A stretch of DNA of 64,000 nucleotides, from assembly GCA_020073375.1 (NCBI GenBank), contig JAIQFG010000003.1:47810-111809 (forward strand). The letters run 5' to 3'. This document shows, in pieces, positions 8,641 through 38,249 of this stretch. Both the position numbers and the translations under genes were made by a program. The notes beneath the pieces are model-generated. The model was not told the DNA's origin. It worked only from the letters and a program-made list of their open reading frames with translations, and did no database searches. Source of the stretch: Terriglobia bacterium. GTDB lineage: Bacteria > Acidobacteriota > Terriglobia > Acidiferrales > UBA7541. Position 1 is the first letter of the stretch. Each line of letters starts with the position of its first letter.

Positions 8641-9000
8641 TTACCTCGACTGCAGTTGCATCAGGTCCAGCAACTCGTCGTACATGGCTTCGGCGCGGCC
8701 CGGCGCGGCGCTGCGTATGGCGTCGGCGGCGCAGTGGCGCAGGTGATTCTTCATCAGCGCGCGCCCAACCGAACGCAGCGCTTCCTGCACGGAGGAAATC
8801 TGCACCAGAATGTCGGCGCAGTAGCGGTCCTCATCCACCAGGCGCTGCAGTCCGCGCACCTGGCCTTCGATGCGCCGCAGCCGCTTCAGATTGGAGGATT
8901 TGATTTCCGGATCGACTTCCAGAGCCTTGCGGTTTTTTTCGCGCGCCCCGCAGCCGCAGGCGGCCGCTTGCGCGCGCGTATTCCTTTTCTGAATAGCCAT
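8641..9000 (-). CDS. csoR: CsoR-family copper-sensing repressor
   Basis: 119 residues of the DUF156 family. The four-helix core carries the Cu(I) fingerprint Cys61 (RYCADIL), His86 and Cys90 (KNHLRHC), as in CsoR. It should bind DNA without copper and release it when Cu(I) binds, controlling itself and the adjacent copA. The ATG has GGGAGAG upstream. It has an unusual N-terminal extension containing CGCG, which could be an extra metal site. An operator should lie within about 60 bases upstream, but I could not define it. Confidence 0.93.
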   Translation of the reverse strand: MAIQKRNTRAQAAACGCGAREKNRKALEVDPEIKSSNLKRLRRIEGQVRGLQRLVDEDRYCADILVQISSVQEALRSVGRALMKNHLRHCAADAIRSAAPGRAEAMYDELLDLMQLQSR

Positions 9001-9067
9001 CGTCTCTCCCCGCCAGGAGTCACTACGCCCGCAGCCTAACATACCCCCCGCCCCTATGTAAAGCCAA

Positions 9068-9168
9068 GTCGCACAGCCACGTCTGGCTGTGTGATTTTGT
9101 GATCCAATCCCCATCGCCCAATCTATCTCAATCGCAAAACCCCACACAGCCTGGAGTGGCTGTGCTAC
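9068..9168. repeat. GTAG/GTCG-headed paired palindrome, stem family B
   Basis: GTCGCACAGCCACGTCTGGC at the left and CTGGAGTGGCTGTGCTAC at the right, a diverged copy of the element at 4007. It lies between csoR and the small gene at 9196. Confidence 0.75.
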
Positions 9169-9180
9169 TCATTCTCCCGC

Positions 9181-9196
9181 TGGTATAATGCCGGCA
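9181..9196 (+). promoter_or_regulatory. Extended -10 promoter, probably giving a leaderless mRNA
   Basis: TGGTATAAT ends six bases before the ATG of the next gene. With usual spacing, transcription would start at or next to the ATG, and no ribosome-binding site is present. No good -35 is visible. Confidence 0.5.
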
Positions 9197-9441
9197 TGAC
9201 ACTGGTGGAAATTACCTACGAACTGCAATCCCCCCTCAACGCCGAGCAACTCCGCGCGCTTGGCAGCTTCGCCAACACGTACGGCCTGCGCCGCTTCCGC
9301 GTGGATGAAAAAACCAACCGCCTGTCGTTTGAATATGACGCTTCGCGCCTGAAGGAAACCGAAGTGGCCCACGTGCTGCGCCAGGCGAACATTCCGGTGA
9401 CCGGTCGCGTCGAACCGGTGGCCACGGTTTCGCAGTTATAG
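9196..9441 (+). CDS. Small conserved-looking protein of unknown function (81 aa)
   Basis: MTLVEITYELQSPLNAEQLR continues to a predicted alpha/beta protein with alternating strands and helices (RFRVDEKTNRLSFEYDASRL, EVAHVLRQANIPVTG). The pattern resembles ferredoxin-like or HMA-like small domains, but the CxxC metal motif is absent. The name is therefore left open. A perfect TATAAT directly upstream and normal codon use support a real gene. It stands next to the copper operon but is transcribed away from it. Confidence 0.7.
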   Translation: MTLVEITYELQSPLNAEQLRALGSFANTYGLRRFRVDEKTNRLSFEYDASRLKETEVAHVLRQANIPVTGRVEPVATVSQL

Positions 9442-10254
9442 ATTTGCTGAGGCTAGGAACCGATAGGGCGGAGTGAATTGATCAGCGCAAAAGGGCCGAG
9501 GAATCATTCGGGCGCGAAAAAATGCGAGCGCGAAAAAATGCGGGGCCAAAAAGAGTACGGGGCCCTTGCTTGGGAACAAGGGCCCCGAAAGACGCATTCC
9601 GTTTCCCGATCTTTTTTTTTGTCGACCGGGGCGTGGGGTCATCCATCCTAGCTTCCCTCTCAGAGGCAGGTGGGAACGACCAGCACTTGTCCAGGAGCAA
9701 GCCCCTTCCCCCTCGCTCAAGGACTTGTGTAAGTCGTCTATCGGAATGCGTCCACGTTCTCCTAGCTATGCACGATGGAGACCAATCTTTCGGACATTCC
9801 CCTTCGCGCGATTTCCTTATTTTTGTTGATTTTCCCAAATCGTTTCGCGTGCATTCCATTCCCCGCCATTCGGTTTTATCCTGAATCGGGAGGGCGTTCT
9901 CCCGGCTCGGGAATTGCAGCAAATCTACTGGCTTCGTTTGCCTCCATCGGCATTTCCGCGATCAGTTTCCCCCGAAGGTATCGACGAAAAGCCTGCGGCA
10001 CCGGTCCACCTCACCTGGATCACACTTGGCCACGATGCGGCGGCCATAAGAAAGAGCCTGTTGGCCGCTGCTTATGAACTTGCGTTGAAGCCAAGCATGT
10101 GGTCCCGATCGCGCGTGAATACCATTTCGGAACAGCGATCGGGTCCTCGGCACCTTCAAGTTGCGGCCGTCCGCTGATTCGGTGCTGCTTAGCCCACGCA
10201 ACTCATTCTTTTTTGCCACTCCGCGTGCCCATTATTCATGCGAGGAACCATGCA
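9442..10254. other. 813-base intergenic region with a perfect hairpin and a tandem repeat
   Basis: No frame here looks like a protein. It holds a 16-base unit repeated twice in tandem (GCGCGAAAAAATGCGA at 9512 and GCGCGAAAAAATGCGG at 9528). A perfect 10-bp hairpin follows at 9559-9586 (GGGGCCCTTG, 8-base loop, CAAGGGCCCC), and a run of T residues lies near 9612. The right half probably contains the pilB promoter, which I cannot place. An untranslated RNA is possible. Confidence 0.5.
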
Positions 10255-12135
10255 ATGAAGCGGAAGCGCCTGGGAGAGTTGCTCCAGGAAAGGGGAAAAA
10301 TATCCGCGGAGAGCCTTCAGCAGCTTTTCAGCGACCAGAAAGATAAGGCCATTCGCCTGGGCGAGTTGATCCTGGAGCGCGGCCTGGTTGAAAAATCCGC
10401 CCTGACCAAGGCGCTAGAGGAAGTCTCGCGCGTGCCATACATGGATTGCACCAACGTCACCTGCGATCCTCAGGCGCTGCATTCCATCCCCCACGAAGTC
10501 GCGCGCCGCCTTTCCATCCTGCCCATCCGCATGGAGCCGAATGTCCTCGTGGTGGCTATGGCCGAGCCTCAAAATCTGCCGGTGCTGGACGAACTTCGCT
10601 TCATCTCCGGAAAGACAATCTCCCCGCGGATCGGCTTTCTAAAGGAAATTGCGGCCGGCATATCCCGGAATTATGGAAGCGGCAATTTGAAGCCCGCGGA
10701 CCAGGAGGGGCAGGCTTTGGGGTCGGGAACATCGTACGATTCGCTTCCGGAGATGGAATTCGTTTCCACCAGTTCCCGTCAGGCCAACAAAGAAGCCATT
10801 CAGGAAATTCAAGCGGAGATCAATCAGAAAAGCACGCCCGCCGTGCGCCTGGTCACGGGGATCATCCGCGATGCGATCTCCCGGCAGGCCAGCGACATCC
10901 ACATCGAGCCGCAGTCGGCCGCAACCTTCGTCCGCATTCGCGTGGATGGCGTGCTGCGCGAACTGACCAACATCCCTCGCGCCCTGCAGAATTCCCTGAT
11001 TTCGCGCGTCAAGATTCTTTCCGACATGGATATCGGTGAACGCCGCGCGCCGCAGGACGGACGGTTCATGGTGGCCATCGGGCCGCACAAAATCGACTTG
11101 CGCGTATCCACGCTGCCCACGCAGTACGGTGAAAAAATCGTGATCCGCCTGCTGGAAACTTCCGCGCCGCTGCTGAGCTTCGCCACTCTCGGTTTCCCTC
11201 CGGAAATTTCCGAACGCATCACGAACCTGCTCTCCTTGCCGCAGGGCATGTTGCTGGTCACCGGCCCCACTGGATCCGGCAAGAGCACGACACTCTATTC
11301 CGCGCTCAATCTGCTGCGAAGGCCCGCGGTCAACATCGTCACCGTTGAGGACCCGGTGGAATACGAACTGGCGGGAATCAATCAGGTGCACGTGAACACA
11401 AAGGCGGGGCTGACTTTCGCCAGTTGCCTGCGTTCCATCCTGCGACAGGATCCCAACGTCATCATGGTGGGAGAAATTCGCGACCTGGAAACCGCCGAAA
11501 TCGCCCTGAAAGCCGCGCAAACCGGTCACCTGGTTTTGTCCACCCTGCACACCAACGACAGCATATCGGCCGTCGCCAGGTTGCTCGACCTGGGAATTCC
11601 CGAGTATCTGATCTCCTCTTCGCTCACGGGAATCCTGGGGCAGAGACTGGTGCGAAAACTTTGCGCCTGCCGCAAATACGAACCTCCCAGCCACGAACAT
11701 ACTGAACGCCTGTTCGCCGCAGGCTGGCCGCAAGTTCCCGCACGAGTTGCCAGGCCGGTGGGATGCTCCATGTGCGATAAATCGGGATACAAGGGACGCG
11801 TCGGCATCTACGAATTGCTGGTGTTGGATCAGTCTGTCCGTGCAGCCCTGCGCGGAGGGTTCAAGCCGGAAATCGTCCGCAACGCAGCGCTGGGCTCGGG
11901 AATGCGCCGCATGCAGGACGACGCGTTTGAAAAGCTGTTCATGGGCGTCACCACGCTGGAGGAGATTCTCCGCGTGGTCCCGGTCGAAAACGTGGCGCTT
12001 TCGGAATGCACGGGATGCGGCCATGAGCTTCTTCCTGCGTTCCAGTTTTGCCCCTACTGCGGCCTCCCTCGCGGTATCGGCGAAAGAAGCCAAAAACCTG
12101 CCGCGCGACCGGTTCCCGATGGAGTGCTCCCTTGA
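10255..12135 (+). CDS. pilB: Type IV pilus assembly ATPase (PilB/GspE family)
   Basis: 626 residues: a GspE N-terminal domain (~1-140), then the secretion ATPase core with Walker A GPTGSGKST (337-345), Walker B NVIMVGEIRDLETAE, the His box GHLVLSTLHTND and a tetracysteine zinc site (Cys470, 472, 504, 507). A second zinc ribbon, Cys585/588 and Cys599/602 (CTGCG...CPYCG), is added at the C-terminus. It powers pilus extension from the cytoplasm. GAGGA precedes the ATG. Its TGA overlaps the ATG of the PilZ gene, and a PilT-type gene follows, so this is a pilus motor operon separate from pilMNOPQ. Confidence 0.93.
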   Translation: MKRKRLGELLQERGKISAESLQQLFSDQKDKAIRLGELILERGLVEKSALTKALEEVSRVPYMDCTNVTCDPQALHSIPHEVARRLSILPIRMEPNVLVVAMAEPQNLPVLDELRFISGKTISPRIGFLKEIAAGISRNYGSGNLKPADQEGQALGSGTSYDSLPEMEFVSTSSRQANKEAIQEIQAEINQKSTPAVRLVTGIIRDAISRQASDIHIEPQSAATFVRIRVDGVLRELTNIPRALQNSLISRVKILSDMDIGERRAPQDGRFMVAIGPHKIDLRVSTLPTQYGEKIVIRLLETSAPLLSFATLGFPPEISERITNLLSLPQGMLLVTGPTGSGKSTTLYSALNLLRRPAVNIVTVEDPVEYELAGINQVHVNTKAGLTFASCLRSILRQDPNVIMVGEIRDLETAEIALKAAQTGHLVLSTLHTNDSISAVARLLDLGIPEYLISSSLTGILGQRLVRKLCACRKYEPPSHEHTERLFAAGWPQVPARVARPVGCSMCDKSGYKGRVGIYELLVLDQSVRAALRGGFKPEIVRNAALGSGMRRMQDDAFEKLFMGVTTLEEILRVVPVENVALSECTGCGHELLPAFQFCPYCGLPRGIGERSQKPAARPVPDGVLP

Positions 12136-19151: not shown

Positions 19152-19793
19152 GTGATCAAGTTCTCCTTCATCGGAATGTCCGGCGCCGGAAAGTCTCACT
19201 GGGCCGAGAAGCTGGCGGGGGCTGGGTTTCGCGTGATCCGCGTTGACGATCGCATCGAGGAAAAGCTCGCGCCGGAGTTGGCGGCCGGGGACTACAAGGG
19301 GATCGGCGGGGTTGCGGCATGGATGGGCTGGCCCGACCAGCCGGCCTATCGCGAGCGGGAGCAGAAATATCTGAACCGGGAAGTGGAGTCCATGAACGAA
19401 GCGCTGAATGAAATGGAATCTGCGGGCGAGGAAGGCATGATATTGGACACGACCGGAAGCGTGGTGTACACGGGCGAAGAAATCTGCAAGCGCATGCAGA
19501 GCCTGACCACGGTGGTGTACCTGGAAGCGCCGGCCAAGGAAGAAAAAATACTGATTGCGCGATACCTTTCCGATCCGAAGCCCGTGCTGTGGGGCGATCG
19601 ATTCGTTCCGCGCGCGGGAGAGTCCGCGAACGACACCGTGTCACGCTGCTATCCTGAGCTGATCGCGCACCGCAAGAAGCTCTACGAAAAATACGCGCAC
19701 CGAGTGGTGTCCATCGAGCGGCTGCGAAAGACGAATCCGGACGCGCGTGCATTTCTGGAGTATATCGACGAGCAGGCGCGGCGCGCGCGATGA
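19152..19793 (+). CDS. Shikimate-kinase-like P-loop kinase
   Basis: 213 residues. IKFSFIGMSGAGKSHWAEKLA is a P-loop like that of shikimate and gluconate kinases, and DDRIEEKL follows as the acidic second motif. MILDTTGSVVYTGEEICKRM and the DPKPVLWGDRF region do not match true AroK, which is ~170 residues with an RPLL lid. The substrate is therefore open. GTG start, GAGG four bases upstream. Its stop overlaps the thrC ATG in ATGA, so it may support the threonine branch, for example as an alternative homoserine kinase; that is speculation. Confidence 0.8.
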   Translation: MIKFSFIGMSGAGKSHWAEKLAGAGFRVIRVDDRIEEKLAPELAAGDYKGIGGVAAWMGWPDQPAYREREQKYLNREVESMNEALNEMESAGEEGMILDTTGSVVYTGEEICKRMQSLTTVVYLEAPAKEEKILIARYLSDPKPVLWGDRFVPRAGESANDTVSRCYPELIAHRKKLYEKYAHRVVSIERLRKTNPDARAFLEYIDEQARRAR

Positions 19794-21097
19794 AATATCG
19801 GAGCACACTGCGCCGCAGCCCGGAAGTGAGCCTGCGCGAAGCCGTTCTGCGCGGCTCGGCGCCGGATGGCGGCCTGTACATGCCGGTGGAGATGCCGCGA
19901 CTGCCAGCCGATTTTCAGGGGCGGCTGGCGAAGCTTTCGTTCCAGGAAATCGCGCGGGAAGTCGGCGCTCTGTTTACCGGCGATGAAGTGCCTCCGCAGA
20001 TTTTACGCAAAATTGTCGCCGAAGCCTTCAATTTCCCCGTGCCGCTGGTGACGCTCAGCGAGCGGCTGCATATTCTGGAACTGTTTCACGGGCCGACGCT
20101 GGCGTTCAAGGATTTTGGGGCGCGCTTCATGGCGCGCCTGATGGAATATTTCGTTCAGGAATCGGGAAACCAACTCACCGTGATCGTGGCCACCTCGGGC
20201 GATACGGGAAGCGCGGTGGCGCAGGCGTTTCTGGGGCTTCCGGGAATCCGCGTGGTGATTCTTTATCCGGCAGGGCGCGTGAGCGTGGCGCAGGAAAAGC
20301 AACTGACCACGCTGGGGCAGAATATTACCGCGCTGGAACTGGCGGGCTCGTTTGACGATTGCCAGCGACTGGCGAAACAATCGCTGGTCGATCCGGAACT
20401 GGCCGCGCGCCTCACGCTCACTTCGGCCAATTCCATCAATATCGGGCGGCTGATTCCGCAGATTTTTTATTATTTCCATGCCGTATCGCAGCTGCGCTTG
20501 CCGGAGATTCCGGCAGTGTTCGCCGTGCCCAGCGGAAATTTCGGAAATCTGACGGGCGGGCTGCTGGCCAAGCGGATCGGGTTGCGCGTGCCGCAATTCA
20601 TCGCCACGACAAACGCCAACGACGTGTTCCCGGAATTCCTGCGCAGCGGGAACATGATCCCGCGCGCTTCGCGGCACACCATTTCCAACGCCATGGACGT
20701 GGGAAACCCGAGCAATTTCGCGCGCATCGTCGATCTTTACGACAACGATCTGCAGGCCATCCGGCACGACATCTGGGGCTGCAGCTTCAGCGACGAGGAA
20801 ACGCTGCGCGTGATGCATGACGTCGAATTGCGCCATCAGTACGTGCTCGATCCGCACACGGCGGTGGGCGTGCTCGGCTGGCAATCCTATGCGAAACAGA
20901 ATCCGGCCGCCACGCAGGGCATCGTCCTGGCCACGGCGCATCCGGCGAAGTTCGCCGAAACCGTGGCCCGGGCCACGGGCCTGCGTCCGGAAATGCCCGA
21001 GCGACTGGCGGCATTCCTGGGACGGCCAAAAAAATCCATTCCGTTTCCCAACCGATTCGCCCAACTTCAGGAATTTCTACTTTCCACCAACTCCTGA
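19790..21097 (+). CDS. thrC: Threonine synthase (canonical long type)
   Basis: 435 residues of a fold-type II PLP enzyme with MKYRSTLRRSPEVSLREAVL, APDGGLYMP, the PLP Lys107 in LFHGPTLAFKDFGARFM, VATSGDTGSAVAQAF and NSINIGRLIPQIFYYFHA. This is the class of E. coli and yeast ThrC and converts O-phosphohomoserine to threonine. It is translationally coupled to the preceding kinase-like gene. A second, different threonine-synthase-family gene lies at 32108, so this copy is the better candidate for threonine production. Confidence 0.96.
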   Translation: MKYRSTLRRSPEVSLREAVLRGSAPDGGLYMPVEMPRLPADFQGRLAKLSFQEIAREVGALFTGDEVPPQILRKIVAEAFNFPVPLVTLSERLHILELFHGPTLAFKDFGARFMARLMEYFVQESGNQLTVIVATSGDTGSAVAQAFLGLPGIRVVILYPAGRVSVAQEKQLTTLGQNITALELAGSFDDCQRLAKQSLVDPELAARLTLTSANSINIGRLIPQIFYYFHAVSQLRLPEIPAVFAVPSGNFGNLTGGLLAKRIGLRVPQFIATTNANDVFPEFLRSGNMIPRASRHTISNAMDVGNPSNFARIVDLYDNDLQAIRHDIWGCSFSDEETLRVMHDVELRHQYVLDPHTAVGVLGWQSYAKQNPAATQGIVLATAHPAKFAETVARATGLRPEMPERLAAFLGRPKKSIPFPNRFAQLQEFLLSTNS

Positions 21098-25788: not shown

Positions 25789-26517
25789 TTAATCCGCGGG
25801 CTGGCGTTCGCGTTTCGCGTCGCCCGCAAAGATAACTTCGCCGAATTCGTGCAGGCCGCGCTTGCCGATCACCCACTGCGCGGCCTTCAGAGCGCCACGC
25901 GCGAAACCTTCGCGGCTGCGGGCGGTGTGCCGCAGCGTGATGGTGTCGGCGGCCGAATCGAATCCGATTTCGTGCGTGCCGGGAATCGTGCCGGCCCGGT
26001 TGGAGCTCACGTCGATGCGCCGCGAATATCCCGCGCGCTGCATTTCCTCCACCAATTGCAGCAGCGTGCCCGAGGGCGCGTCCTTCTTCGCCGTATGATG
26101 CACTTCCCAGGCCCACGCGCCGTATTCCGGTTCGCCGGCCATCAGGCGCGCCGCCTCGGCCACCACGCGGCGGAACACGTTCACGCCAATCGAATAATTC
26201 GCGCTCCACACCACGCCAACGCCGGAAATGTCCACGAATTTCCGGACGCGGCCGAGTTCGCCGTACCAACCCGTGGTGCCCACCACCGTGGGGACGCCGA
26301 TGGCGCACAGCCGCTCGAGATTCGCCACAGCCACGTGCGGCGTCGAGAACTCGATGGCCACGTCCACGCCGCGAAAATTTTCCGGCGTGATTCCGGCCTG
26401 GTTCACGTTCGTATCGATGTCCAGCTTCAGGCCCACCGAAAATCCGGCTTCCGGGGCGAGGCGCTCGATGAGCTGGCCCATTTTTCCGTACCCGACGATG
26501 GCAAGATTTTTAGGCAT
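25789..26517 (-). CDS. dapB: 4-Hydroxy-tetrahydrodipicolinate reductase
   Basis: 242 residues: an N-terminal Rossmann fold (LAIVGYGKMGQLIERLA), VAIEFSTPHVAV, VVGTTGWY and the catalytic EVHHTAKKDAPSGT loop. It is ~25 residues shorter than E. coli DapB, mostly in the Rossmann part, as in other compact DapB proteins. Its start overlaps the end of dapE by 8 bases, so the two are cotranscribed. Confidence 0.95.
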   Translation of the reverse strand: MPKNLAIVGYGKMGQLIERLAPEAGFSVGLKLDIDTNVNQAGITPENFRGVDVAIEFSTPHVAVANLERLCAIGVPTVVGTTGWYGELGRVRKFVDISGVGVVWSANYSIGVNVFRRVVAEAARLMAGEPEYGAWAWEVHHTAKKDAPSGTLLQLVEEMQRAGYSRRIDVSSNRAGTIPGTHEIGFDSAADTITLRHTARSREGFARGALKAAQWVIGKRGLHEFGEVIFAGDAKRERQPAD

Positions 26518-27535
26518 GGAGGGCTTGTCCTCGGCTCAACAGAGTGCGCGTCATGTTCGCGTAGGTATCGACCGCATCGAGCAATTCGCGCTTGGAAATC
26601 TTCTCCTGCGTGGTGTGCGCCACGTGAATACTGCCCGGGCCGAACAGGAACGGCTCGCCCCAGGCCGGCGCCAGCACCGGAATATCGGTGGTGAAGGCCA
26701 CGACGGAGGTGGGAAAACCGTCGAGCGCGGCAAAACGCATGGCCGGCAACGACAAGATCTCCTTCACCTCGGCGCGATCGCCGACCGCGGCGCGCAGCGC
26801 CCGATCGATTTGCCGGCCGTCGCTCACCAGGCGAATCGCGAGTTCCGCCTTCGCCGCGTCCGGGATAATGTTGGGCGCGCGCCCGCCGGAAATCGTGCCG
26901 ATGTTCAGCGTCGTCTTCCCCAAGACCAGATCCGCTGGCAGAGGCATTCGCCGGATCGAATCCAGGGCGTCGAGAAGTTTTTCGATGGCGGAATCGCCCA
27001 GTTCCGGATAGGCCGAGTGCGCCATCTTGCCCGCGGCGATCACTTCGCAACGCAGAATTCCCTTCGAGCCGAGCGCGACTTTGCTCTCGGTCGGCTCGCC
27101 GTTGATCAGGTAGCGCGCTCCTCGAGGCGATCGCGCGGCCACTTCGGCGCCGGCGCTGTTGCGCTCTTCCCCGACGACAAACAGCAGTCCGAAATTCCGC
27201 GTGCCAGCTTCAATCAATTTTTCGGCGGAGGCAATCATCGCGGCGATGATGCCCTTGGCATCGCACGAACCGCGCCCGTAAATATTGCTGTCGTCCTCGC
27301 TCGACGGGAAAAACGGCGGCACAGTATCCATGTGCGTGGAAAGCACGACCACGGGTTCGCCCCACTCGGCGTACACATTGAAGCGGTTGGGCGTCACCAT
27401 CATGGCTTCCACATTGCCGCCGGACCCCGCCGCCAGGCCGGAGAGATAGTGGAGCAGGTATTCGCCTACCTGCTTTTCATTCTCCGTGATCGACTCGATG
27501 TCGACCAATGCGCGCGTCATTTCAAATGGATGCAT
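26510..27535 (-). CDS. dapE: M20-family deacylase, probable succinyl-diaminopimelate desuccinylase
   Basis: 341 residues of a zinc-dependent M20 peptidase: LSTHMDTVPP (first metal ligand), IYGRGSCDAKGIIAAMI, VVGEERNSAGA (catalytic Glu) and a dimerisation domain. The place ahead of dapB-dapA-dapD and the presence of the succinylase DapD point to DapE, although ArgE-like specificity cannot be ruled out. It is the first gene of the lysine operon. No ribosome site is obvious. The aminotransferase step (DapC) and DapF are not in this window. Confidence 0.85.
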   Translation of the reverse strand: MHPFEMTRALVDIESITENEKQVGEYLLHYLSGLAAGSGGNVEAMMVTPNRFNVYAEWGEPVVVLSTHMDTVPPFFPSSEDDSNIYGRGSCDAKGIIAAMIASAEKLIEAGTRNFGLLFVVGEERNSAGAEVAARSPRGARYLINGEPTESKVALGSKGILRCEVIAAGKMAHSAYPELGDSAIEKLLDALDSIRRMPLPADLVLGKTTLNIGTISGGRAPNIIPDAAKAELAIRLVSDGRQIDRALRAAVGDRAEVKEILSLPAMRFAALDGFPTSVVAFTTDIPVLAPAWGEPFLFGPGSIHVAHTTQEKISKRELLDAVDTYANMTRTLLSRGQALHA

Positions 27536-27662: not shown

Positions 27663-28110
27663 TGGGTCGTGATCGATTCTAATCCTATGGGGGGAACGGC
27701 GCGCAGGCGAAGGAGCGGCGCGCAAAGGGGCAGGCGCCTCGCTCCTCGATAGCGCTCCATCCGTTTTCGGATCGGGCTCCAACTAGAGCCCACAACCGAC
27801 CTCAGGATGACAGTGGGCGGGTGTTAGCCTCGCCCCCCAGCCTCCGCGGCAGGATTGCCGTCGGCGGCTTCGGCGGAAGAAACTGCTTTGCACCTTTCGC
27901 CAAGCCTCCGAAATTCCTCGGAACCGCTGCCCGGCTACTGATTGCTTCCGCTCCTCTACCAAGACGCGTCAAAGATAGCATCCGATGCCTGCCGGGTCAA
28001 ACGAAGCGGGATTTCAGGCCGCCCGGTTGCAAATTGTCCGCGGCCCTAAATTGTGCGGAACTACCCCGCCCTTGCTATAATTCCAGCCGCGGCGAATCCA
28101 GCGCGCATCC
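27663..28110. other. Intergenic region upstream of the FkbM gene
   Basis: About 450 bases without a convincing gene. It holds a perfect 6-bp hairpin at 27774-27791 (GGGCTC, loop CAACTA, GAGCCC). At its right end is a promoter with TTGTGC (28051) and an extended -10 TGCTATAAT (28073-28081). Confidence 0.55.
28051..28081 (+). promoter_or_regulatory. Promoter of the FkbM methyltransferase gene
   Basis: A perfect TATAAT with TG one base ahead (extended -10), and TTGTGC 19 bases upstream. It ends 29 bases before the ATG. Confidence 0.55.
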
Positions 28111-31420: not shown

Positions 31421-31849
31421 TGGCTTTCTATCCGCCTGCGGAAATCGAGGCGCTCGTTCGGATCATTTTCTTTCGCCGGGTGGAGCGCGCTTCCGGCCGG
31501 TGGCGCCCTCTGTGATTAGGTTGCAAATCTTGCGATCCCTGGATCGCTGTTCTTTCACGCACCGCCAAATCACAATTGGAGTGTCGACCGGGAAGGAGCA
31601 ATTGAATTGCCAACCACAAGAATCTGGCGGGGCTAACCATTGAATTATGAATGGTTTGGATGAGGACAAATGCCGCCTTGTGCCAGCGGATCCGGAGGAA
31701 GTGTCAAACGGAAACAATCTGTTTCAAGCGGGCGTGAGGCATGGTTTGCGTTGGGCTCTTCATTCGGGCCGACAGGAGTGTATAAATCGGGCTTCGAGGG
31801 TCAATCAAGAAAAGGCGCCCGCCGCAAACTATGCCGCGGGAAAAACGCC
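31421..31849. other. Intergenic region between the kinase and the SAM-II promoter
   Basis: About 430 bases. I see no supported gene, hairpin or repeat apart from the kinase promoter that must lie at its left end on the minus strand. Confidence 0.4.
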
Positions 31850-31878
31850 TTGACAGGAAGATACGCTAAATCTATACT
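31850..31878 (+). promoter_or_regulatory. Consensus sigma-70 promoter of the SAM-II-led unit
   Basis: TTGACA and TATACT with exactly 17 bases between them. The predicted start, near 31885, lies about 7 bases before the first paired base of the riboswitch. Confidence 0.85.
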
Positions 31879-31890
31879 TTCTTCGCTGGA

Positions 31891-31942
31891 CACGTGGCGA
31901 TTTAAGGCAACTTGCTCCACGTAAAAAACTGCTAAAGAGTCG
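31891..31942 (+). promoter_or_regulatory. SAM-II (SAM-alpha) riboswitch candidate
   Basis: The segment follows the SAM-II consensus in order: P1 left strand ACGTGG (31892-31897), the loop GATTTAAGGCAACTTGC, P1 right strand CCACGT (31917-31922), an A-rich joint (AAAAA), then GCTAAAG (31931-31937) that completes the pseudoknot region. GATTT, CTTGC, CCACGT and GCTAAAG are the conserved blocks of the metA/metX leaders described in alphaproteobacteria. SAM-II RNAs bind S-adenosylmethionine and turn methionine genes down. A terminator follows at 31970. Covariance scoring was not possible here. Confidence 0.82.
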
Positions 31943-31968
31943 GACGAGCACTCAATTAGAACTTTTTG

Positions 31969-32007
31969 AGCCCTCCCCCTCTTTGGCGTGGAGGGTTCTT
32001 TGTTTTC
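31969..32007 (+). terminator. Intrinsic terminator / expression platform after SAM-II
   Basis: CCCTCC (31971-31976) pairs with GGAGGG (31990-31995), extended by flanking GAG and TTC, followed by TTCTTTGTTTT. It lies between the riboswitch and the coding region, so SAM-dependent early termination is likely. Confidence 0.72.
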
Positions 32008-32107
32008 AGGAAACTCTTCCGCGCCGCCAACCTGCAGCAGTTCATCCAGTCAGAATGTTATTTTTATTAGGTGGCCGCAAGCCAGCCATCGAAAGCGGGA
32101 AGCCATT

Positions 32108-33358
32108 ATGGCCGAACATTTTCAATTGAAATGCCGAGAATGCGGGAAGTTGTGGGGAAATCAGGCACGTTCGTTCTGCGAGGAGTGCCTGTCGCCGCTG
32201 GAAGTGGTTTACGACCTGGAGGCCATTCGCCCTGTTTTTACCCGCAAGAACATCGAAGCCGGGCCGAACAATCTGTGGCGCTATAGCGCGCTGCTACCCC
32301 TGCCCGATGGCTACCAAGCTACTCTGCCGACAGGGTTTACGCCGCTGGTACAGGCGCGGCGGCTGGGCAAGAAACTGGGCGCCAGCCAGCTTTACGTGAA
32401 AAACGACGCCGTCTGCTTCCCCACCCTCTCGTTCAAGGATCGCGTGGTGGCAACCGCCCTGGCTGCGGCGCGCCGGTTTGGCTTTCAGGTAGTGAGCTGC
32501 TCCTCGACCGGCAATTTGGCCAACGCAGTGGCCGCGCAGGCCGCACGCGAGGGATTCGACGCCTGGATCTTCATTCCCGCCGATCTGGAACCCGCCAAGA
32601 TTACCGGCACGCAGGTCTTCGGTGCGAAGTTGGTGCGCATCGCCGGAAACTACGACCAGGTGAACCGCCTTTGCTCGCAGATCGCCGAGAAATTCAACTG
32701 GGGATTCGTGAACGTGAATCTGCGGCCGTACTACGCCGAGGGTTCCAAGACCGTGGGGTATGAAATCGCCGAGCAACTCGGCTGGCGACTGCCCGACAAC
32801 ATCGTGGTGCCCATGGCCGGCGGCTCGCTGATCACCAAAATCCGCAAGGCGTTCAATGAGCTGATCGCGCTGGGACTGGTCGAAGAAAAGAAAGTGAAAT
32901 TCTTCGGCGCGCAAGCCACCGGCTGCTCGCCGATTTCCGACGCCGTGAAGCGCAATCTGGACCGCTTCGAGCCGCAAAAGCCCGCGACGATTGCGCGCTC
33001 GCTGGCCATCGGCAATCCCGCCGACGGCTTTTACGCCTCGCGCGCCATTCGCGACAGCGGCGGCTGGGCCGAGGATGTTTCCGACGCCGACATCGTCAAG
33101 GGCATTCAGCTGCTTGCCGAACACGAAGGAATTTTCACGGAAACGGCCGGCGGCGTAACCACTGGCGTGACCCAGAAACTGATTCAGCAGGGCTACATCA
33201 ATCCTAGCGAAATCACAGTGGCCTGCATCACGGGCAACGGCCTGAAGACAATCGACGCGATTTCGCAGGAATACACGTTGACGCCGGCGATCGAGCCGCG
33301 CCTTAGCGTGTTTGAATCCTTCATCAATGACCGCATGGTTGCAGTGGCGGGAAACTAG
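32108..33358 (+). CDS. Threonine-synthase-family PLP enzyme under SAM-II control
   Basis: 416 residues. An N-terminal zinc ribbon (Cys9, Cys12, Cys24, Cys27) precedes a fold-type II PLP domain with Lys110 in CFPTLSFKDRVV, SCSSTGNLANAVAAQAA and VPMAGGSLITK. It differs from the canonical ThrC at 19790. By homology it would be annotated thrC (O-phosphohomoserine to threonine). The SAM-II leader and the CysO-like gene 6 bases downstream instead suggest that it makes homocysteine from an activated homoserine with carrier-bound sulfide. That function is inferred. GGGAAG stands upstream of the ATG. Confidence 0.85.
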   Translation: MAEHFQLKCRECGKLWGNQARSFCEECLSPLEVVYDLEAIRPVFTRKNIEAGPNNLWRYSALLPLPDGYQATLPTGFTPLVQARRLGKKLGASQLYVKNDAVCFPTLSFKDRVVATALAAARRFGFQVVSCSSTGNLANAVAAQAAREGFDAWIFIPADLEPAKITGTQVFGAKLVRIAGNYDQVNRLCSQIAEKFNWGFVNVNLRPYYAEGSKTVGYEIAEQLGWRLPDNIVVPMAGGSLITKIRKAFNELIALGLVEEKKVKFFGAQATGCSPISDAVKRNLDRFEPQKPATIARSLAIGNPADGFYASRAIRDSGGWAEDVSDADIVKGIQLLAEHEGIFTETAGGVTTGVTQKLIQQGYINPSEITVACITGNGLKTIDAISQEYTLTPAIEPRLSVFESFINDRMVAVAGN

Positions 33359-33364
33359 GAAAAC

Positions 33365-33661
33365 ATGAAAATTACCGTGGAAATTCCCACAGCATTGCGC
33401 CGGTTTACCGACGGCGTGCAATCCATCGAATGCGGCTCAGCGACCTTGCCGGAATTGATGAGCGAAATCGAGTCGAGGTTCCCGGCCATCAGCAAGCACT
33501 TGCGCGACGATGCCGGGCAGGTGCGGCGCTTCATCAACATTTACGTAAACGAGGAAGATATTCGCTTTCTCGGCGGGGACAGCTACAAGTTTCGCGAAGG
33601 CGACCGCGTGCTGGTGGTTCCCTCGATCGCCGGCGGAGCTCCCTCAAATGCCTGCGGATGA
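33365..33661 (+). CDS. CysO-like (MoaD/ThiS family) sulfur carrier protein with masked Gly-Gly
   Basis: 98 residues with the beta-grasp fold. MKITVEIPTALRRFTDG and RRFINIYVNEEDIRFLGG are very like mycobacterial CysO, ending in VPSIAGG. Gly90-Gly91 should carry the thiocarboxylate, but seven more residues (APSNACG) follow, so a protease of the Mec/JAMM type would have to trim it before activation by an E1-like enzyme. Neither partner is in the window. It starts 6 bases after the PLP gene and belongs to the SAM-II unit. Sulfur delivery to homocysteine or cysteine is inferred. Confidence 0.85.
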   Translation: MKITVEIPTALRRFTDGVQSIECGSATLPELMSEIESRFPAISKHLRDDAGQVRRFINIYVNEEDIRFLGGDSYKFREGDRVLVVPSIAGGAPSNACG

Positions 33662-34071: not shown

Positions 34072-34644
34072 ATGAGTCTATTTCCCATGTTCGTGAAGCT
34101 TGAGGGCCGGCAGGTGCTGGTGGTCGGCGCGGGAAGCGTGGGCGAGGCGAAGATTGAAAGCCTGCTGGCGACCGATGCCGCGGTGCGCGTCGTCGCGCCG
34201 CACGCCACGCCGCGCGTTCGCGAATGGGCGCGCGAGGGGCGCATCGAATGGCACGCCCGGGAATATTCTCCGGCGGATTTCGCGGGCGTGTTTCTGGTCA
34301 TCGCCTCGACCAATTCCCCGGCGCTGCATGACGACATTTATGCGGAGGCGAAAAGCCGCGGCGTGCTCTGCAACTGCGTGGACGAACCGGTGCGCTGCGA
34401 CTTCTACTTCCCCGCCGTGGTGCGCCGTGGAGAATTGCAGATAGCGATTTCCACCGGCGGCCTAAGCCCCGCGCTGGCGCAGCGGTTGCGCAAGGAACTG
34501 GAACAGCAGTTCGGGCCGGAGTGGGAGCAGTGGCTGGAGCAGCTCGGCCGCACGCGGGACGAGTTGCAGAGCATTCCCATGCCGCCGGAGCAGCGCAAGC
34601 GCCTGCTGCACCAGTATGCGAGCCTGGATCCGAAGCCGCAGTAG
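34072..34644 (+). CDS. Precorrin-2 dehydrogenase / sirohydrochlorin ferrochelatase (CysG-N, SirC type)
   Basis: 190 residues. MSLFPMFVKLEGRQVLVVGAG is the NAD-binding start of this family; VIASTNSPALHDDIYAEA, CNCVDEPVRCDFYFPAVV and ISTGGLSPALAQRLRKELE are its signature segments. It oxidises precorrin-2 and probably inserts iron to make sirohaem, the cofactor of sulfite and nitrite reductases. The ATG follows an in-frame upstream ATG that lies inside the repeat. It is the first structural gene behind the Thr/Ile attenuator. Confidence 0.92.
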   Translation: MSLFPMFVKLEGRQVLVVGAGSVGEAKIESLLATDAAVRVVAPHATPRVREWAREGRIEWHAREYSPADFAGVFLVIASTNSPALHDDIYAEAKSRGVLCNCVDEPVRCDFYFPAVVRRGELQIAISTGGLSPALAQRLRKELEQQFGPEWEQWLEQLGRTRDELQSIPMPPEQRKRLLHQYASLDPKPQ

Positions 34645-34696
34645 CGCGTGGGATGAAAAAATCGGGATTTGTAAAGCAGGACGCTTCCGAAAAGCT

Positions 34697-34824
34697 TTGT
34701 GGGTCGGACCTTCAGGTCCGAGGTTACTGCGGCAGGTCTAAGGGCTTTTAAGCCCTGGCGCTTCAGGGGCTAAAGCCCATCGCCCGTAGAAGCTTTATGT
34801 CGGAGCTGAAGCTCCGACCCACAA
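34697..34824. repeat. Paired palindrome with GTGGGTCGGA ends
   Basis: TTGTGGGTCGGACCTTCAGG at the left and GGAGCTGAAGCTCCGACCCA at the right. Between them are more small hairpins (GGGCTTTTAAGCCC, GCTTCAGGGGCTAAAGC). This is a third sequence family of the same architecture; a fragment like it lies at 43860. Confidence 0.75.
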
Positions 34825-34877
34825 ACCAGTTTCTTAAGGCACAGCAGCCGCGAAGCTTGAGAGGAATGAGAATCGAA

Positions 34878-35699
34878 ATGCCGGGAAAAGTTTATCTCGT
34901 GGGAGCCGGGCCGGGCGATCCGGAATTGCTGACGCGCAAGGCGTGGCGCGTGTTGCAGTCCGCCGACGCCGTGCTGCACGACGACTTGGTCTCCGAAGAG
35001 ATTCTGCGGACTTTGCCGGCAGCCGCGCTGGTCCTGAACGTGGGAAAGCGCTGCGGCGCCAAGGGAATTTCGCAGCGCGAGATCAACGAGCGCATGGTGG
35101 ACCTGGCGCGCGCGGGAAAAATCGTCGCGCGCCTCAAGAGCGGAGACCCGCTGCTGTTCGGCCGCGCGGGAGAAGAGATGGAAGCGCTGCGCGAAGCGGG
35201 CGTCGAGTTCGAGGTAATTCCTGGAGTCACTTCGGCGCTGGGCGCGGCAGCTTCGGCCGGAATTTCGCTGACCGACCGGCGGCGCGCTTCGCGCGTGGTG
35301 TTTGTCACAGCGCATCGCGAGGGCGGCTCGGGGCTGATTCACGAACACGACGTGGCCGCGGACACTACCTACGTGATTTACATGCCGGGCAACCGCTACG
35401 CGGCGCTTTCCTCGGAACTGATGGCTGCTGGACTTGGTGCGGAAATTCCCTGCGTGCTGATCTCGCGCGCGACCACAAAGGACGAAACGGTGTTTCGTAC
35501 GACGGTCGGAAAAATATCCGAGTGCCCGGCGGTGGTGTCGCCGTCGCTTGTGATCGTGGGCGCGGTGGCGGGCGCGCCGCTTGGCCAAGAAACCAAAACC
35601 TCCGAAGGCGAACTCTTGGCCGAGGATTATTCGGAAATTCTAAGTCTTGCTTTGCAGCATCCATTCCATCATTCGTTGAGGGGGAACGGTGTCGAATAA
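34878..35699 (+). CDS. cobA: Uroporphyrinogen-III C-methyltransferase
   Basis: 273 residues from MPGKVYLVGAGPGDPELLTR. VLHDDLVSEEIL, GDPLLFGRAGEE, EVIPGVTSALGAAASAGI and a late VIVGAVA are standard for SUMT (CobA/CysG-C). It makes precorrin-2 from uroporphyrinogen III with SAM, feeding the preceding dehydrogenase. An ATG four codons upstream (34866) is an alternative, but its GAGGA is too close. The 3' end overlaps asd by 11 bases. The ~20-residue tail after the catalytic domain is not family-typical. Confidence 0.93.
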   Translation: MPGKVYLVGAGPGDPELLTRKAWRVLQSADAVLHDDLVSEEILRTLPAAALVLNVGKRCGAKGISQREINERMVDLARAGKIVARLKSGDPLLFGRAGEEMEALREAGVEFEVIPGVTSALGAAASAGISLTDRRRASRVVFVTAHREGGSGLIHEHDVAADTTYVIYMPGNRYAALSSELMAAGLGAEIPCVLISRATTKDETVFRTTVGKISECPAVVSPSLVIVGAVAGAPLGQETKTSEGELLAEDYSEILSLALQHPFHHSLRGNGVE

Positions 35700-36795
35700 C
35701 AAAGTGCGGGTGGGAATTCTGGGCGCGACCGGGATGGTCGGCCAACGATTTGTGCAAATGCTGGAGCATCATCCCGGGTTTGAGGTCACGGCGCTGGCCG
35801 CTTCGGACCGGTCGCAGGGCAAGCCCTACGCGGAGGCGTGTACCTGGCGGCTGGTGGGCGACATGCCGGCCTTCGCGCGAGCGATGATCGTGCAGCCGCC
35901 GCAGCCGCCGCTGGATTGCGACGTGGTCGTTTCCAGTTTGCCTTCCGACGTGGCGCGCGCCAGCGAAGAAGCCTTCGCCCGCGCCGGCTATCCCGTAATC
36001 AGCAACGCCTCCAGTTTGCGCATGGACCAGGACGTTCCCCTGCTGATTCCCGAAATTAATTCCCAACACCTCGATGTTCTGGAGCGCCAGAAGCAGGAGC
36101 GCGGGTACACCACCGGCTACGTGGTCACGAATCCGAATTGCTCGACGATCATCATGGCGCTGGCGCTGGCGCCACTGCACGCGAAATTCGGCATCGAGGC
36201 CGTGATCGCCACAACGCTGCAGGCCGTATCCGGAGCGGGCTATCCGGGCGTGCCTTCGCTCGACGTGGTCGACAACGTGATTCCCTTCATCGGCGGCGAG
36301 GAGCCGAAGATGGAAAGCGAGACGCGGAAAATTCTCGGCAGCCTCGGACGCAATTCCTTTGAGAACGCTCCGTTCGCGGTGAGCGCGCAATGCCATCGCG
36401 TGAACGTGGCCGACGGGCACTTGGTGGCGGTGCGCGTGAAACTCGCCAAGCGCGCGACGATTGAACAAGTTCGCGAGGCGCTGGCGTCCTACCGGTCGGT
36501 GCCGCAGGAACTGAACCTGCACACCGCGCCAAAAAATCCGGTGCTGGTGCGCAGCGAAGACGACCGGCCGCAGCCGCGCCTGGACCGTGACGCGGGCGGA
36601 GGCATGAGCGTCACCGTCGGGCGATTATTTCCCGACAGCGTGTTCGATTACCGGTTTGTGGTGCTGGGGCACAACACCGTGCGCGGCGCCGCGGGCGCGG
36701 CGATCCTGAATGCCGAATTGCTGCAGGCGCGCGGGCTGCTCACGGCCAACTCCGGGCCTGAAACCGCTGCGGCGGGCAAAGCGAGGGTGCGATGA
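35689..36795 (+). CDS. asd: Aspartate-semialdehyde dehydrogenase (archaeal/fungal type)
   Basis: 368 residues. VRVGILGATGMVGQRFVQML binds NADP; the catalytic Cys151 is in VTNPNCSTIIMALAL, and GAGYPGVPSLDVVDNVIPFI is the marker of the archaeal/fungal branch of ASADH. It gives aspartate semialdehyde for Lys, Met, Thr and Ile. GTG start behind GAGGGGGAACG. It overlaps the gene before by 11 bases and the gene after by 4 (ATGA), so this is one operon. Confidence 0.95.
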   Translation: MSNNKVRVGILGATGMVGQRFVQMLEHHPGFEVTALAASDRSQGKPYAEACTWRLVGDMPAFARAMIVQPPQPPLDCDVVVSSLPSDVARASEEAFARAGYPVISNASSLRMDQDVPLLIPEINSQHLDVLERQKQERGYTTGYVVTNPNCSTIIMALALAPLHAKFGIEAVIATTLQAVSGAGYPGVPSLDVVDNVIPFIGGEEPKMESETRKILGSLGRNSFENAPFAVSAQCHRVNVADGHLVAVRVKLAKRATIEQVREALASYRSVPQELNLHTAPKNPVLVRSEDDRPQPRLDRDAGGGMSVTVGRLFPDSVFDYRFVVLGHNTVRGAAGAAILNAELLQARGLLTANSGPETAAAGKARVR

Positions 36796-38249
36796 GCCGT
36801 CCGATCCAGGTGATGAAATTCGGCGGCACGTCGGTGGGCGATGCCGGGCGCATTCGCAGCGCGGCGAAAATCGCGGCGGATACGTCGAAGGACCGCGCGG
36901 TGGTCGTGGTGGTTTCGGCCATGTCCGGAGTCACCAACACCTTGATTGCGGCGGCGGGAAAGGCCGCTGCGGGCGATGAATCGGCGGCCGAAGCGCTGGC
37001 AAAATCGCTGCAGGCCAAGCATCACGAAGCCATCGGCGAGTTGATCGCGAACATCGACCGGCGGCGCGAACTGCTCGCGGAAATCGACGCCCTGATCGAA
37101 CGCGCGGCCAATCATTGCCGGGGCTGCGCGCTGCTCGGAGAACTTTCGCCGCGCGCGCTGGACGTGATTGCCGGAACGGGCGAGCGCATCACCGCGCGCA
37201 TCACTGCCGCTGTGCTGCGTGAGTTGGGCTACCGCGGAGTGGCCTTCGATGCGACTGACCTGATCGTTACGGACGACGTTCACGGCGGCGCCAGGCCGCT
37301 GCCCGTGCCCACTCGCACGAAAACACAGGCGGCGCTCATGCCGCTGCTCGAAGCGGACGGCATACCGGTCGTGACTGGATATATCGCCGCAACCGCCAAG
37401 GGCGTTCCCACGACGCTTGGCCGCGGCGGCTCCGATTATTCCGCAACGATTCTGGGCGCGGCGCTCGACGCCAGCGAAGTGATCATCTGGACCGACGTGA
37501 ACGGCGTGCTTACCGCGGACCCCAGAATGGTTCCCGACGCGGTCACACTGGACGAAGTTTCCTACGCTGAAGCAGGCGAACTCGCGTTTTTCGGCGCGAA
37601 GGTGCTGCACCCGATGACGCTGCGCCCGGTGATCGAAAGCGCCATCCCCGTATGGATCCGCAACAGTTTCCAGCCTCAGCAGGCCGGAACGAAAATCACG
37701 CACAGCGTGCGGCCCGCGCCGAAGGGCGTCAAGGCCGTGACGGCCACGCGCGACGTGGCCATGATCTCGGTAGCCGGGCCGGGAATTATCGGCGTGCCGG
37801 ACATCGCCGCGCGGATTTTCGGCGCGACTGCTTCCGTTCGCGCCAATATCGTGATGATTTCGCAATCGTCGTCGCAGGACAGCATCTGCTTCGTGGTGCA
37901 GGCCGCCGACGCCACGCGCACGGAGAAGGCGCTGCGCGACGCGCTTTACGAAGACGTGCACCTGCACGACCTCGAACACGTGAAGGTGAACAAGAACGTG
38001 GCCATCGTCGCCGCAGTCGGCGAAAATATGGCCGGAACCCCAGGCATCGCCGGCGCCGTCTTCAGCACCATGGGCAAGGAATCGATCAACATCATCGCCA
38101 TCGCGCAGGGATCTTCCGAGTACAACATTTCGTTCCTGGTGGATTCGACGGGGATGGAAAAAGCGGTGAAGGCGCTGCATCAGGCGTTTGGGCTGGGCAA
38201 GCAGGAATTGGGTGGAGAAGCGAGGCCGGTGGCGCAGGTGACTTCTTAA
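36792..38249 (+). CDS. lysC: Aspartate kinase with ACT domains
   Basis: 485 residues. The kinase starts IQVMKFGGTSVGDAGRI, with TGERITARITAAVLRELGY, TTLGRGGSDYSATILGAAL and WTDVNGVLTADPRMVPDA. Two ACT repeats follow (MISVAGPGIIGVPDIAARIF; VAIVAAVGENMAGTPGIAGAVF), with SINIIAIAQGSSEYNISFLV as an effector-binding stretch, so feedback by Lys, Thr or homoserine is expected. It is the last gene of the attenuator-led operon and coupled to asd by ATGA. No homoserine dehydrogenase domain is attached. Confidence 0.95.
   Translation: MSRPIQVMKFGGTSVGDAGRIRSAAKIAADTSKDRAVVVVVSAMSGVTNTLIAAAGKAAAGDESAAEALAKSLQAKHHEAIGELIANIDRRRELLAEIDALIERAANHCRGCALLGELSPRALDVIAGTGERITARITAAVLRELGYRGVAFDATDLIVTDDVHGGARPLPVPTRTKTQAALMPLLEADGIPVVTGYIAATAKGVPTTLGRGGSDYSATILGAALDASEVIIWTDVNGVLTADPRMVPDAVTLDEVSYAEAGELAFFGAKVLHPMTLRPVIESAIPVWIRNSFQPQQAGTKITHSVRPAPKGVKAVTATRDVAMISVAGPGIIGVPDIAARIFGATASVRANIVMISQSSSQDSICFVVQAADATRTEKALRDALYEDVHLHDLEHVKVNKNVAIVAAVGENMAGTPGIAGAVFSTMGKESINIIAIAQGSSEYNISFLVDSTGMEKAVKALHQAFGLGKQELGGEARPVAQVTS

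Follow-up and report, generated by a model that had tools for sequence, protein, structure and literature searches.

This work concerns a 64,000-nucleotide stretch of a Terriglobia bacterium genome (assembly GCA_020073375.1, contig JAIQFG010000003.1), called the window here, in which a promoter, a leader RNA resembling a riboswitch for S-adenosylmethionine (SAM), an enzyme gene of the threonine synthase family and a gene for a small sulfur carrier follow one another. The enzyme at 32108..33358 is called ThrS throughout. The source genome comprises 5.29 Mb in 176 contigs and is 94.7% complete. A sequence-only reading of the window had proposed that ThrS makes homocysteine with carrier-bound sulfur under the control of a SAM-II riboswitch. 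The elements in question, including a pyridoxal 5'-phosphate (PLP) enzyme, are as follows.

31850..31878 (+), sigma-70-type promoter, TTGACA-17-TATACT, 11 of 12 consensus positions
31884..31955 (+), predicted SAM-II-like riboswitch aptamer, conserved core 31892-31939
31977..32005 (+), intrinsic terminator between aptamer and ThrS, hairpin 31977-31995 plus T-rich tail
32108..33358 (+), ThrS, ATG start, 416 aa, threonine-synthase-family fold-type II PLP enzyme, predicted homocysteine synthase
33365..33661 (+), CysO-type beta-grasp sulfur carrier, 98 aa, beginning 6 bases after the ThrS stop

ThrS and its carrier

ThrS scores 267.5 bits against TIGR00260 (thrC), above the curated cut-off of 167.1, and 288.4 bits against the threonine synthase model PRK08197, under the cut-off of 303. 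Its nearest solved chains are threonine synthases (1uim, 2zsj, 2d1f), and it retains the STGN motif and the PLP lysine, assigned to K110 from the SFKDR motif. The closest ThrS beyond its own genome, from a Terriglobia bacterium of the phylum Acidobacteriota, is 98% identical. The family assignment made earlier is therefore confirmed, and so is the CysO-like carrier 6 bases downstream, whose best solved relative is M. tuberculosis CysO (3dwg, E 2.6e-20) and which matches PF02597 (ThiS/beta-grasp) at 46.4 bits. The carrier does not terminate in GG: its IAGG, with GG at residues 90-91, is followed by the seven residues APSNACG, so the carrier would need trimming. Such tails are common, since 60 of the 87 carrier frames parsed have 1-7 residues beyond GG and 8 have more; 19 end exactly in GG.

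A canonical threonine synthase, ThrC, lies elsewhere in the window, where the sequence-only reading had placed it:

19790..21097 (+), separate threonine synthase ThrC (context), TIGR00260 287.5 bits

This duplication is nearly general. Of 79 ThrS genomes, 77 have two or more TIGR00260 matches at E <= 1e-20 (the exceptions are G140 and G356), and ThrS as the cell's sole threonine synthase is thus not borne out; among the matches listed, two exceed the curated cut-off in at least 69 of those 77. In a tree of 49 sequences, rooted at the midpoint only, a single clade (100/100) takes in all 29 ThrS rows and excludes the 20 ThrC rows; ThrS does not fall among the ThrC sequences of its phylum. At twenty positions, a residue with at least 97% conservation in as many as 111 ThrS rows is shared by no more than 10% of the 20 ThrC rows. 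Five of these ThrS-fixed residues, R206, Y209, A237, L137 and T381, are absent from every one of the 20 ThrC rows compared, all of which have glycine at the position of A237. The loss of a single phosphate-binding arginine was also considered as proof of changed specificity and was dropped, because that position varies among ordinary ThrC too. At least 8000 proteins pass E <= 1e-60 to ThrS and may include ordinary ThrC; among the matches listed (120, about 71% identity or more), every source name given is threonine synthase.

The leader RNA upstream of ThrS

The consensus promoter named in the sequence-only reading is borne out by its 11 matches of 12 and by the count of promoter-like sites in 31700-32120, two against a mean of 0.1 in shuffles. 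The RNA that follows contains the SAM-II-like core elements, namely the hairpin ACGTGG/CCACGT, GATTTA, CTTGC and GCTAAAG. At the gathering score, Rfam finds no riboswitch in the ThrS leader of the window. A permissive Rfam search places SAM_alpha (RF00521, SAM-II class; 24.8 bits, gathering 36, E 0.0013) at 31884-31955 and gives the SAM-II long loop model (RF01726) 19.1 bits (gathering 44). Alignment to the Rfam consensus recovers the core GATTT..CTTGC..GCTAAA and the hairpin.

Our argument that this RNA is real is a comparative one. A 44-nt core pattern matches the window once (31894-31937) and matches none of 100 shuffles. Across 17 ThrS leaders, 45 of the 48 positions of the core 31892-31939 are invariant and the flanks are variable, part of this invariance being built in because the leaders were chosen by a pattern on GATTT, TTGC and GCTAAA. 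The six-pair aptamer hairpin is invariant in all 17 aligned leaders, leaving no variation for a covariation test. A search model, R1, was built from these leaders and run over 92 sources (783 kb). It gave 14 strong matches (E <= 3e-7) in 9 sources, every one upstream of ThrS, and two further matches at chance level (E 0.48); the window leader scores 90.5 bits against this model, which includes the window sequence. In addition, a 39-nt core with one A/G position free is exact in loci L118 and L162, where ThrS is only ~58% identical to that of the window. The SAM-II candidate thus stands on core, hairpin and comparative conservation, but it does not reach the Rfam gathering score. Tandem SAM-II-like aptamers, in two copies, were seen upstream of ThrS in five loci (L115, L118, L120, L159, L160).

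The terminator before the gene is likewise upheld, with a hairpin and a T-rich tail. Alone, such a hairpin is no more than chance would give (mean 0.6 in shuffles). However, of 23 SAM-II-type leaders, 20 have a terminator-like hairpin after the core against 0.95 expected from single-base shuffles, and the stems of these hairpins differ in sequence among the leaders. Folding of the leader by energy alone gave an uninformative z of -0.9, under an energy model that takes in no pseudoknot.

Two classes of predicted SAM sensor precede ThrS

We compared the regions upstream of ThrS in 96 Acidobacteriota loci, i.e. 94 run through Rfam together with the window and L170, both of which carry the SAM-II-like core. 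SAM-I (S-box, RF00162), scoring at or above Rfam gathering, is found in 62, the SAM-II-like core in 28 and neither in 6 (L059, L113, L114, L116, L124, L185). Merging loci that share a 120-base stretch leaves 87 distinct loci with 55, 26 and 6, respectively. The window's own family contributes 19 upstream regions, 15 SAM-II-like and 4 SAM-I, plus a twentieth too short to score. The presence of two different SAM sensor classes on the same gene points to the methionine branch for ThrS. The recurrence of leader and gene pair across genomes that the sequence-only reading had looked to is thus seen: a SAM riboswitch of either class precedes ThrS in 81 of the 87 loci, and the pair occurs, judged by record titles, in several phyla.

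The carrier and other neighbors of ThrS

A carrier frame lies no more than 2 kb downstream of ThrS in 75 of 80 loci, and the distance is no more than 100 bases in 67 of the 72 found by BLAST. Two of the five loci without a carrier, L057 and L082, end within 240 bases. In another ThrS set, the carrier was present in 17 of the 30 loci where 1.5 kb was readable.

Genes for sulfur activation and reduction recur around the pair. L064 has the order CysK-MoeB-ThrS-sulfite-reductase-family-carrier-MoeB, and L071 is similar; L062 and L072 have ThrS-carrier-MoeB-(weak DsrE-like)-CysM-like. ThrS adjoins a MoeB/ThiF-type enzyme in L156, L158 and L166. The pair stands beside siroheme genes in L159, L160 and the window, and L162 has ThrS-carrier followed by a methionine-synthase-like gene that is below family cut-offs. 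In L177 (genome G028), the order is ThrB-ThrS-siroheme genes-nitrite/sulfite-reductase-like gene. The order ThrS-carrier-ThrB is found in L163, L164 and L165. ThrB, the homoserine kinase, whose presence near ThrS we count toward O-phosphohomoserine as the substrate, was assigned by TIGR00191 (cut-off 168) at 194-257 bits in L054, L152, L153, L163, L164, L165 and L177.

Two carriers are fused to a C-terminal NIL domain (PF09383, 51 and 49 bits), at 7627-8142 of L064 and 7751-8266 of L071, so that GG is internal. Behind the L064 cluster, 8987-11195 encodes a variant radical-SAM protein and a DASS-family anion symporter.

MetX, MetA and MetY in ThrS genomes

A complete MetX/MetY system under the same SAM-II control in the genome had been named in the sequence-only reading as an observation that would speak against it, and none was found. 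The window's genome holds no full MetX, the usual homoserine-acylating enzyme (the best is a partial 88-bit match), and no MetA was found in it. Nor does it have MetY: the two full-length PF01053 enzymes reach 332 and 350 bits where the MetY cut-off is 495, and they fall below all the curated cut-offs listed.

For the wider comparison, ThrS membership was set at 409 bits or more (next score 251), and full MetX at roughly 249 bits and above in the phylum set and E <= 1e-55 in the class set, all after seeing the score gaps. MetX-like alpha/beta hydrolases were not counted; these score at most 216 bits (a partial gene in G109) and otherwise at most 175, with 140 in the ThrS genome G103. G112 was counted as ThrS-positive though a contig end truncates its gene. 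Among 200 genomes of the window's class, 121 have ThrS, 56 have MetX, 31 have neither and only 8 have both, where about 34 are expected (Fisher p 4e-17, kinship ignored); a ThrS cut by a contig end in G262 was missed by the class search and would raise the 8 to 9. Among 149 genomes of the phylum, MetX is present in 2 of 35 ThrS genomes and in 30 of 114 others (Fisher p 0.009, kinship ignored), and MetA in none of the 35 and 8 of the 114. A further 54 ThrS genomes were reached via loci. Full MetX occurs in 2 of the 23 that come from Terriglobia-type loci, plus one weak match.

Sulfur-carrier machinery elsewhere in the genome

Another contig of the window's genome carries four successive genes of this kind. 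They encode a CysM-like enzyme (TIGR01138 341 bits, under the cut-off of 394), a JAMM protease resembling Mec (PF14464 95.8 bits), a CysO-like carrier that also has a tail, and an E1-rhodanese of the MoeB/MoeZ type; the best models for the last are MoeB/MoeZ, one of them (PRK08762) over its cut-off. The genome also has CysK (TIGR01139 451 bits, over cut-off). The activating and releasing enzymes of this cluster could serve the ThrS carrier as well. In Mycobacterium, CysO receives its sulfur through MoeZ, O-phosphoserine is added by CysM, and cysteine is set free by Mec (PMC3227635). A JAMM protease is present in 61 of 65 genomes, which makes carrier tail length uninformative as a predictor of the protease. 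In the four genomes lacking it, the carriers end exactly in GG (G019, G343, G349) or are fused to NIL (G356).

Discussion

Taken together, our data suggest, with a probability of roughly two in three, that ThrS and its carrier act as a SAM-repressed homocysteine synthase that would use O-phosphohomoserine as acceptor and the carrier thiocarboxylate as sulfur donor. Homocysteine, the precursor of methionine, is the likely product, O-phosphohomoserine the likely acceptor and the carrier the likely donor, each judged from gene content and sequence comparison. In the threonine synthase reaction, O-phosphohomoserine loses phosphate from C-gamma and gains water at C-beta. In the mechanism we propose, the leader would shut off ThrS transcription when SAM is high. 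The Mec-like JAMM protease would trim the carrier to GG, and the MoeZ-type E1-rhodanese would adenylate and then sulfurate it. ThrS would eliminate phosphate from O-phosphohomoserine as threonine synthases do, and the carrier sulfur would attack C-gamma, in place of water attacking C-beta. Finally, the JAMM protease would cleave the carrier-homocysteine adduct, in the manner of the CysM-CysO-Mec pathway. For a ThrS without a carrier gene nearby, the sulfur may come from a carrier whose gene lies elsewhere, or from free sulfide.

Several observations weigh against this interpretation. The SAM-II assignment of the leader is sub-threshold in Rfam, and the Rfam scan found no SAM riboswitch upstream of ThrS in 6 non-Acidobacteriota loci. 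Some SAM-regulated ThrS genes have no carrier nearby. L054, a member of the window's own family, has ThrS followed directly by ThrB, and in L152-L155 ThrS heads a MetY-MetX-(MetW)-ThrB run without a carrier (MetY was checked in L152 and MetW in L153, the other members being named by similarity to these). This run may represent two homocysteine routes in one operon, or ThrS turning to another role. A ThrB neighbor would equally fit a threonine synthase. In a sister subclade at 48-50% identity, no carrier stands beside ThrS in the stretches read, the nearest being 2.5 kb downstream (L178), and the members G125 and G077 also carry MetX. Full MetX is present in 12 of the 31 ThrS genomes reached outside Terriglobia-type loci, so the exclusion of MetX does not hold everywhere. 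In addition, 76 of the 149 phylum genomes have no ThrS, MetX or MetA at the thresholds used; therefore missing acylation alone does not demand ThrS.

The most credible alternative is one that we nevertheless consider unlikely: ThrS may be a SAM-regulated homocysteine synthase acting on free sulfide, the carrier serving something else, e.g. as a second CysO for cysteine. SAM-I-controlled ThrS genes without a nearby carrier in L054, L152, L156, L158 and L166 would fit this, as would the G028 gene between ThrB and the siroheme and nitrite/sulfite-reductase-like genes. Against this, 75 of 80 loci have a carrier after ThrS, within 100 bases in 67 of the 72 found by BLAST, and a MoeB-type activating enzyme stands beside the pair in several loci.

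That ThrS is an extra threonine synthase whose expression is incidentally tied to SAM appears improbable. Its family name, its TIGR00260 score and its ThrB, aspartate kinase (LysC) and aspartate-semialdehyde dehydrogenase (Asd) neighbors agree with this role. However, another thrC-family match is present in 77 of 79 genomes, the twenty ThrS-fixed positions are rare in ThrC, and threonine synthesis has no use for a sulfur carrier. In addition, control that switches the gene off with SAM would cut threonine synthesis just when phosphohomoserine should go to threonine.

We give still less credence to the pair making cysteine from O-phosphoserine and the carrier thiocarboxylate, as CysM and CysO do in Mycobacterium. 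No solved carrier is closer than CysO, and cysteate synthase, a ThrC paralogue, uses O-phosphoserine with sulfite, although ThrS scores only 51 bits against TIGR03844, far below the cut-off of 325. The genome already has CysK, plus a CysM-like enzyme encoded alongside genes of the Mec, CysO and MoeZ types, and the SAM riboswitches of two classes together with the missing MetX argue for methionine. Least credible is a ThrS that makes cystathionine from O-phosphohomoserine and cysteine, as plants make it from O-phosphohomoserine, with a lyase, possibly one of the two PF01053 enzymes below the listed curated cut-offs, then yielding homocysteine, because this leaves the carrier unexplained and the cystathionine synthases known to us are fold type I.

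The proposed SAM-repressed, thiocarboxylate-dependent homocysteine synthase has parallels in known systems, the two nearest being mycobacterial CysM-CysO and the HcyS-MetY pathway of Wolinella. Krishnamoorthy and Begley are said to have described, in 2011, a protein-thiocarboxylate methionine pathway in Wolinella succinogenes with HcyS, HcyD, HcyF and MetY. That pathway shares with ours a small beta-grasp carrier, E1-like and JAMM-like proteins in the genome, and homocysteine as the product predicted here. It differs in that the partner here is a fold-type II threonine synthase paralogue under SAM riboswitch control with O-phosphohomoserine as predicted acceptor, whereas Wolinella uses the fold-type I MetY and O-acetylhomoserine. 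The threonine-synthase-fold partner is thus what likely distinguishes the ThrS-carrier pair, judged by sequence, from known thiocarboxylate-dependent homocysteine synthesis. The Mycobacterium CysM-CysO-Mec-MoeZ system (PMC3227635) has in common with ours a CysO-type carrier, a fold-type II PLP enzyme and, as predicted here, a phosphorylated amino acid as acceptor, and Mec-like and MoeZ-like genes are present in our genome. Unlike CysM, ThrS belongs to the ThrC family and would yield homocysteine, and the genome has its CysM-CysO-like cluster at another locus.

ThrS resembles ThrC in family, in the PLP-lysine and STGN motifs and in its closest solved relatives, but stands apart by its separate clade, its own fixed residues, SAM control and a carrier partner. 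Direct sulfhydrylation by MetX-MetY would have the same product as that proposed for ThrS, but MetX, MetA and MetY were not found in the window's genome. The leader, in turn, is like SAM-II (SAM_alpha) in its core letters, its hairpin and the terminator downstream, and unlike it in scoring below SAM_alpha gathering, in its tandem copies in five loci and in the replacement of the SAM-II-like core by SAM-I in relatives.

No threonine-synthase-type homocysteine synthase appeared in the literature searched, which covered titles and abstract openings and left most subscription papers outside its reach. The portion of the GapMind main text that was accessible contains no mention of thiocarboxylate or a sulfur carrier. 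If our interpretation is true, it would close a gap in the methionine synthesis of a large group of soil bacteria. Of the 200 genomes sampled in the window's class, 113 have ThrS without MetX, so that pathway tools built on acylation only would miss their methionine synthesis. It would also provide a fold-type II solution to homocysteine formation, a reaction that we know only from fold-type I enzymes. O-phosphohomoserine goes to methionine in plants, and here too it would be sent to methionine. The family, labelled threonine synthase wherever a name is given among the matches listed, would then need renaming.

On balance, with odds only a little better than even, we extend this to a general methionine route in which a ThrC-derived fold-type II gamma-replacement enzyme would convert O-phosphohomoserine to homocysteine via a dedicated thiocarboxylate. 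It would be the main route of many Acidobacteriota, recur in Dadabacteria, Myxococcota, Nitrospirota and others, and be hidden under the name threonine synthase.

Other features of the window and related loci

Downstream of the carrier, the window continues with the following context genes.

34075..35699 (+), siroheme genes: CysG-N-type 34075-34644 and uroporphyrinogen-III methyltransferase 34797-35699
35689..36795 (+), aspartate-semialdehyde dehydrogenase, TIGR00978 457 bits, over cut-off
36792..38249 (+), aspartate kinase, TIGR00657 410 bits, over cut-off

A shikimate-kinase-like open reading frame at 19152-19793 (+; PF01202 28 bits) overlaps the ThrC start by 4 bases. It could be a homoserine kinase of the shikimate-kinase type, like the one reported for Desulfovibrio (PMC5764234). 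On the reverse strand, a Lysine riboswitch (RF00168, 62.4 bits; 27742-27966) lies upstream of genes of the M20-peptidase family (26510-27535) and the DapB family (25789-26517), and together these are a neighboring lysine-biosynthesis unit. A Lysine riboswitch is also found at 784-1009 of locus L018. Among the related loci, L045 has a Fluoride riboswitch at 321-393, and L096 has two Acido-Lenti-1 RNAs (8349-8393 and 8491-8535) on opposite strands, about 100 bases apart.

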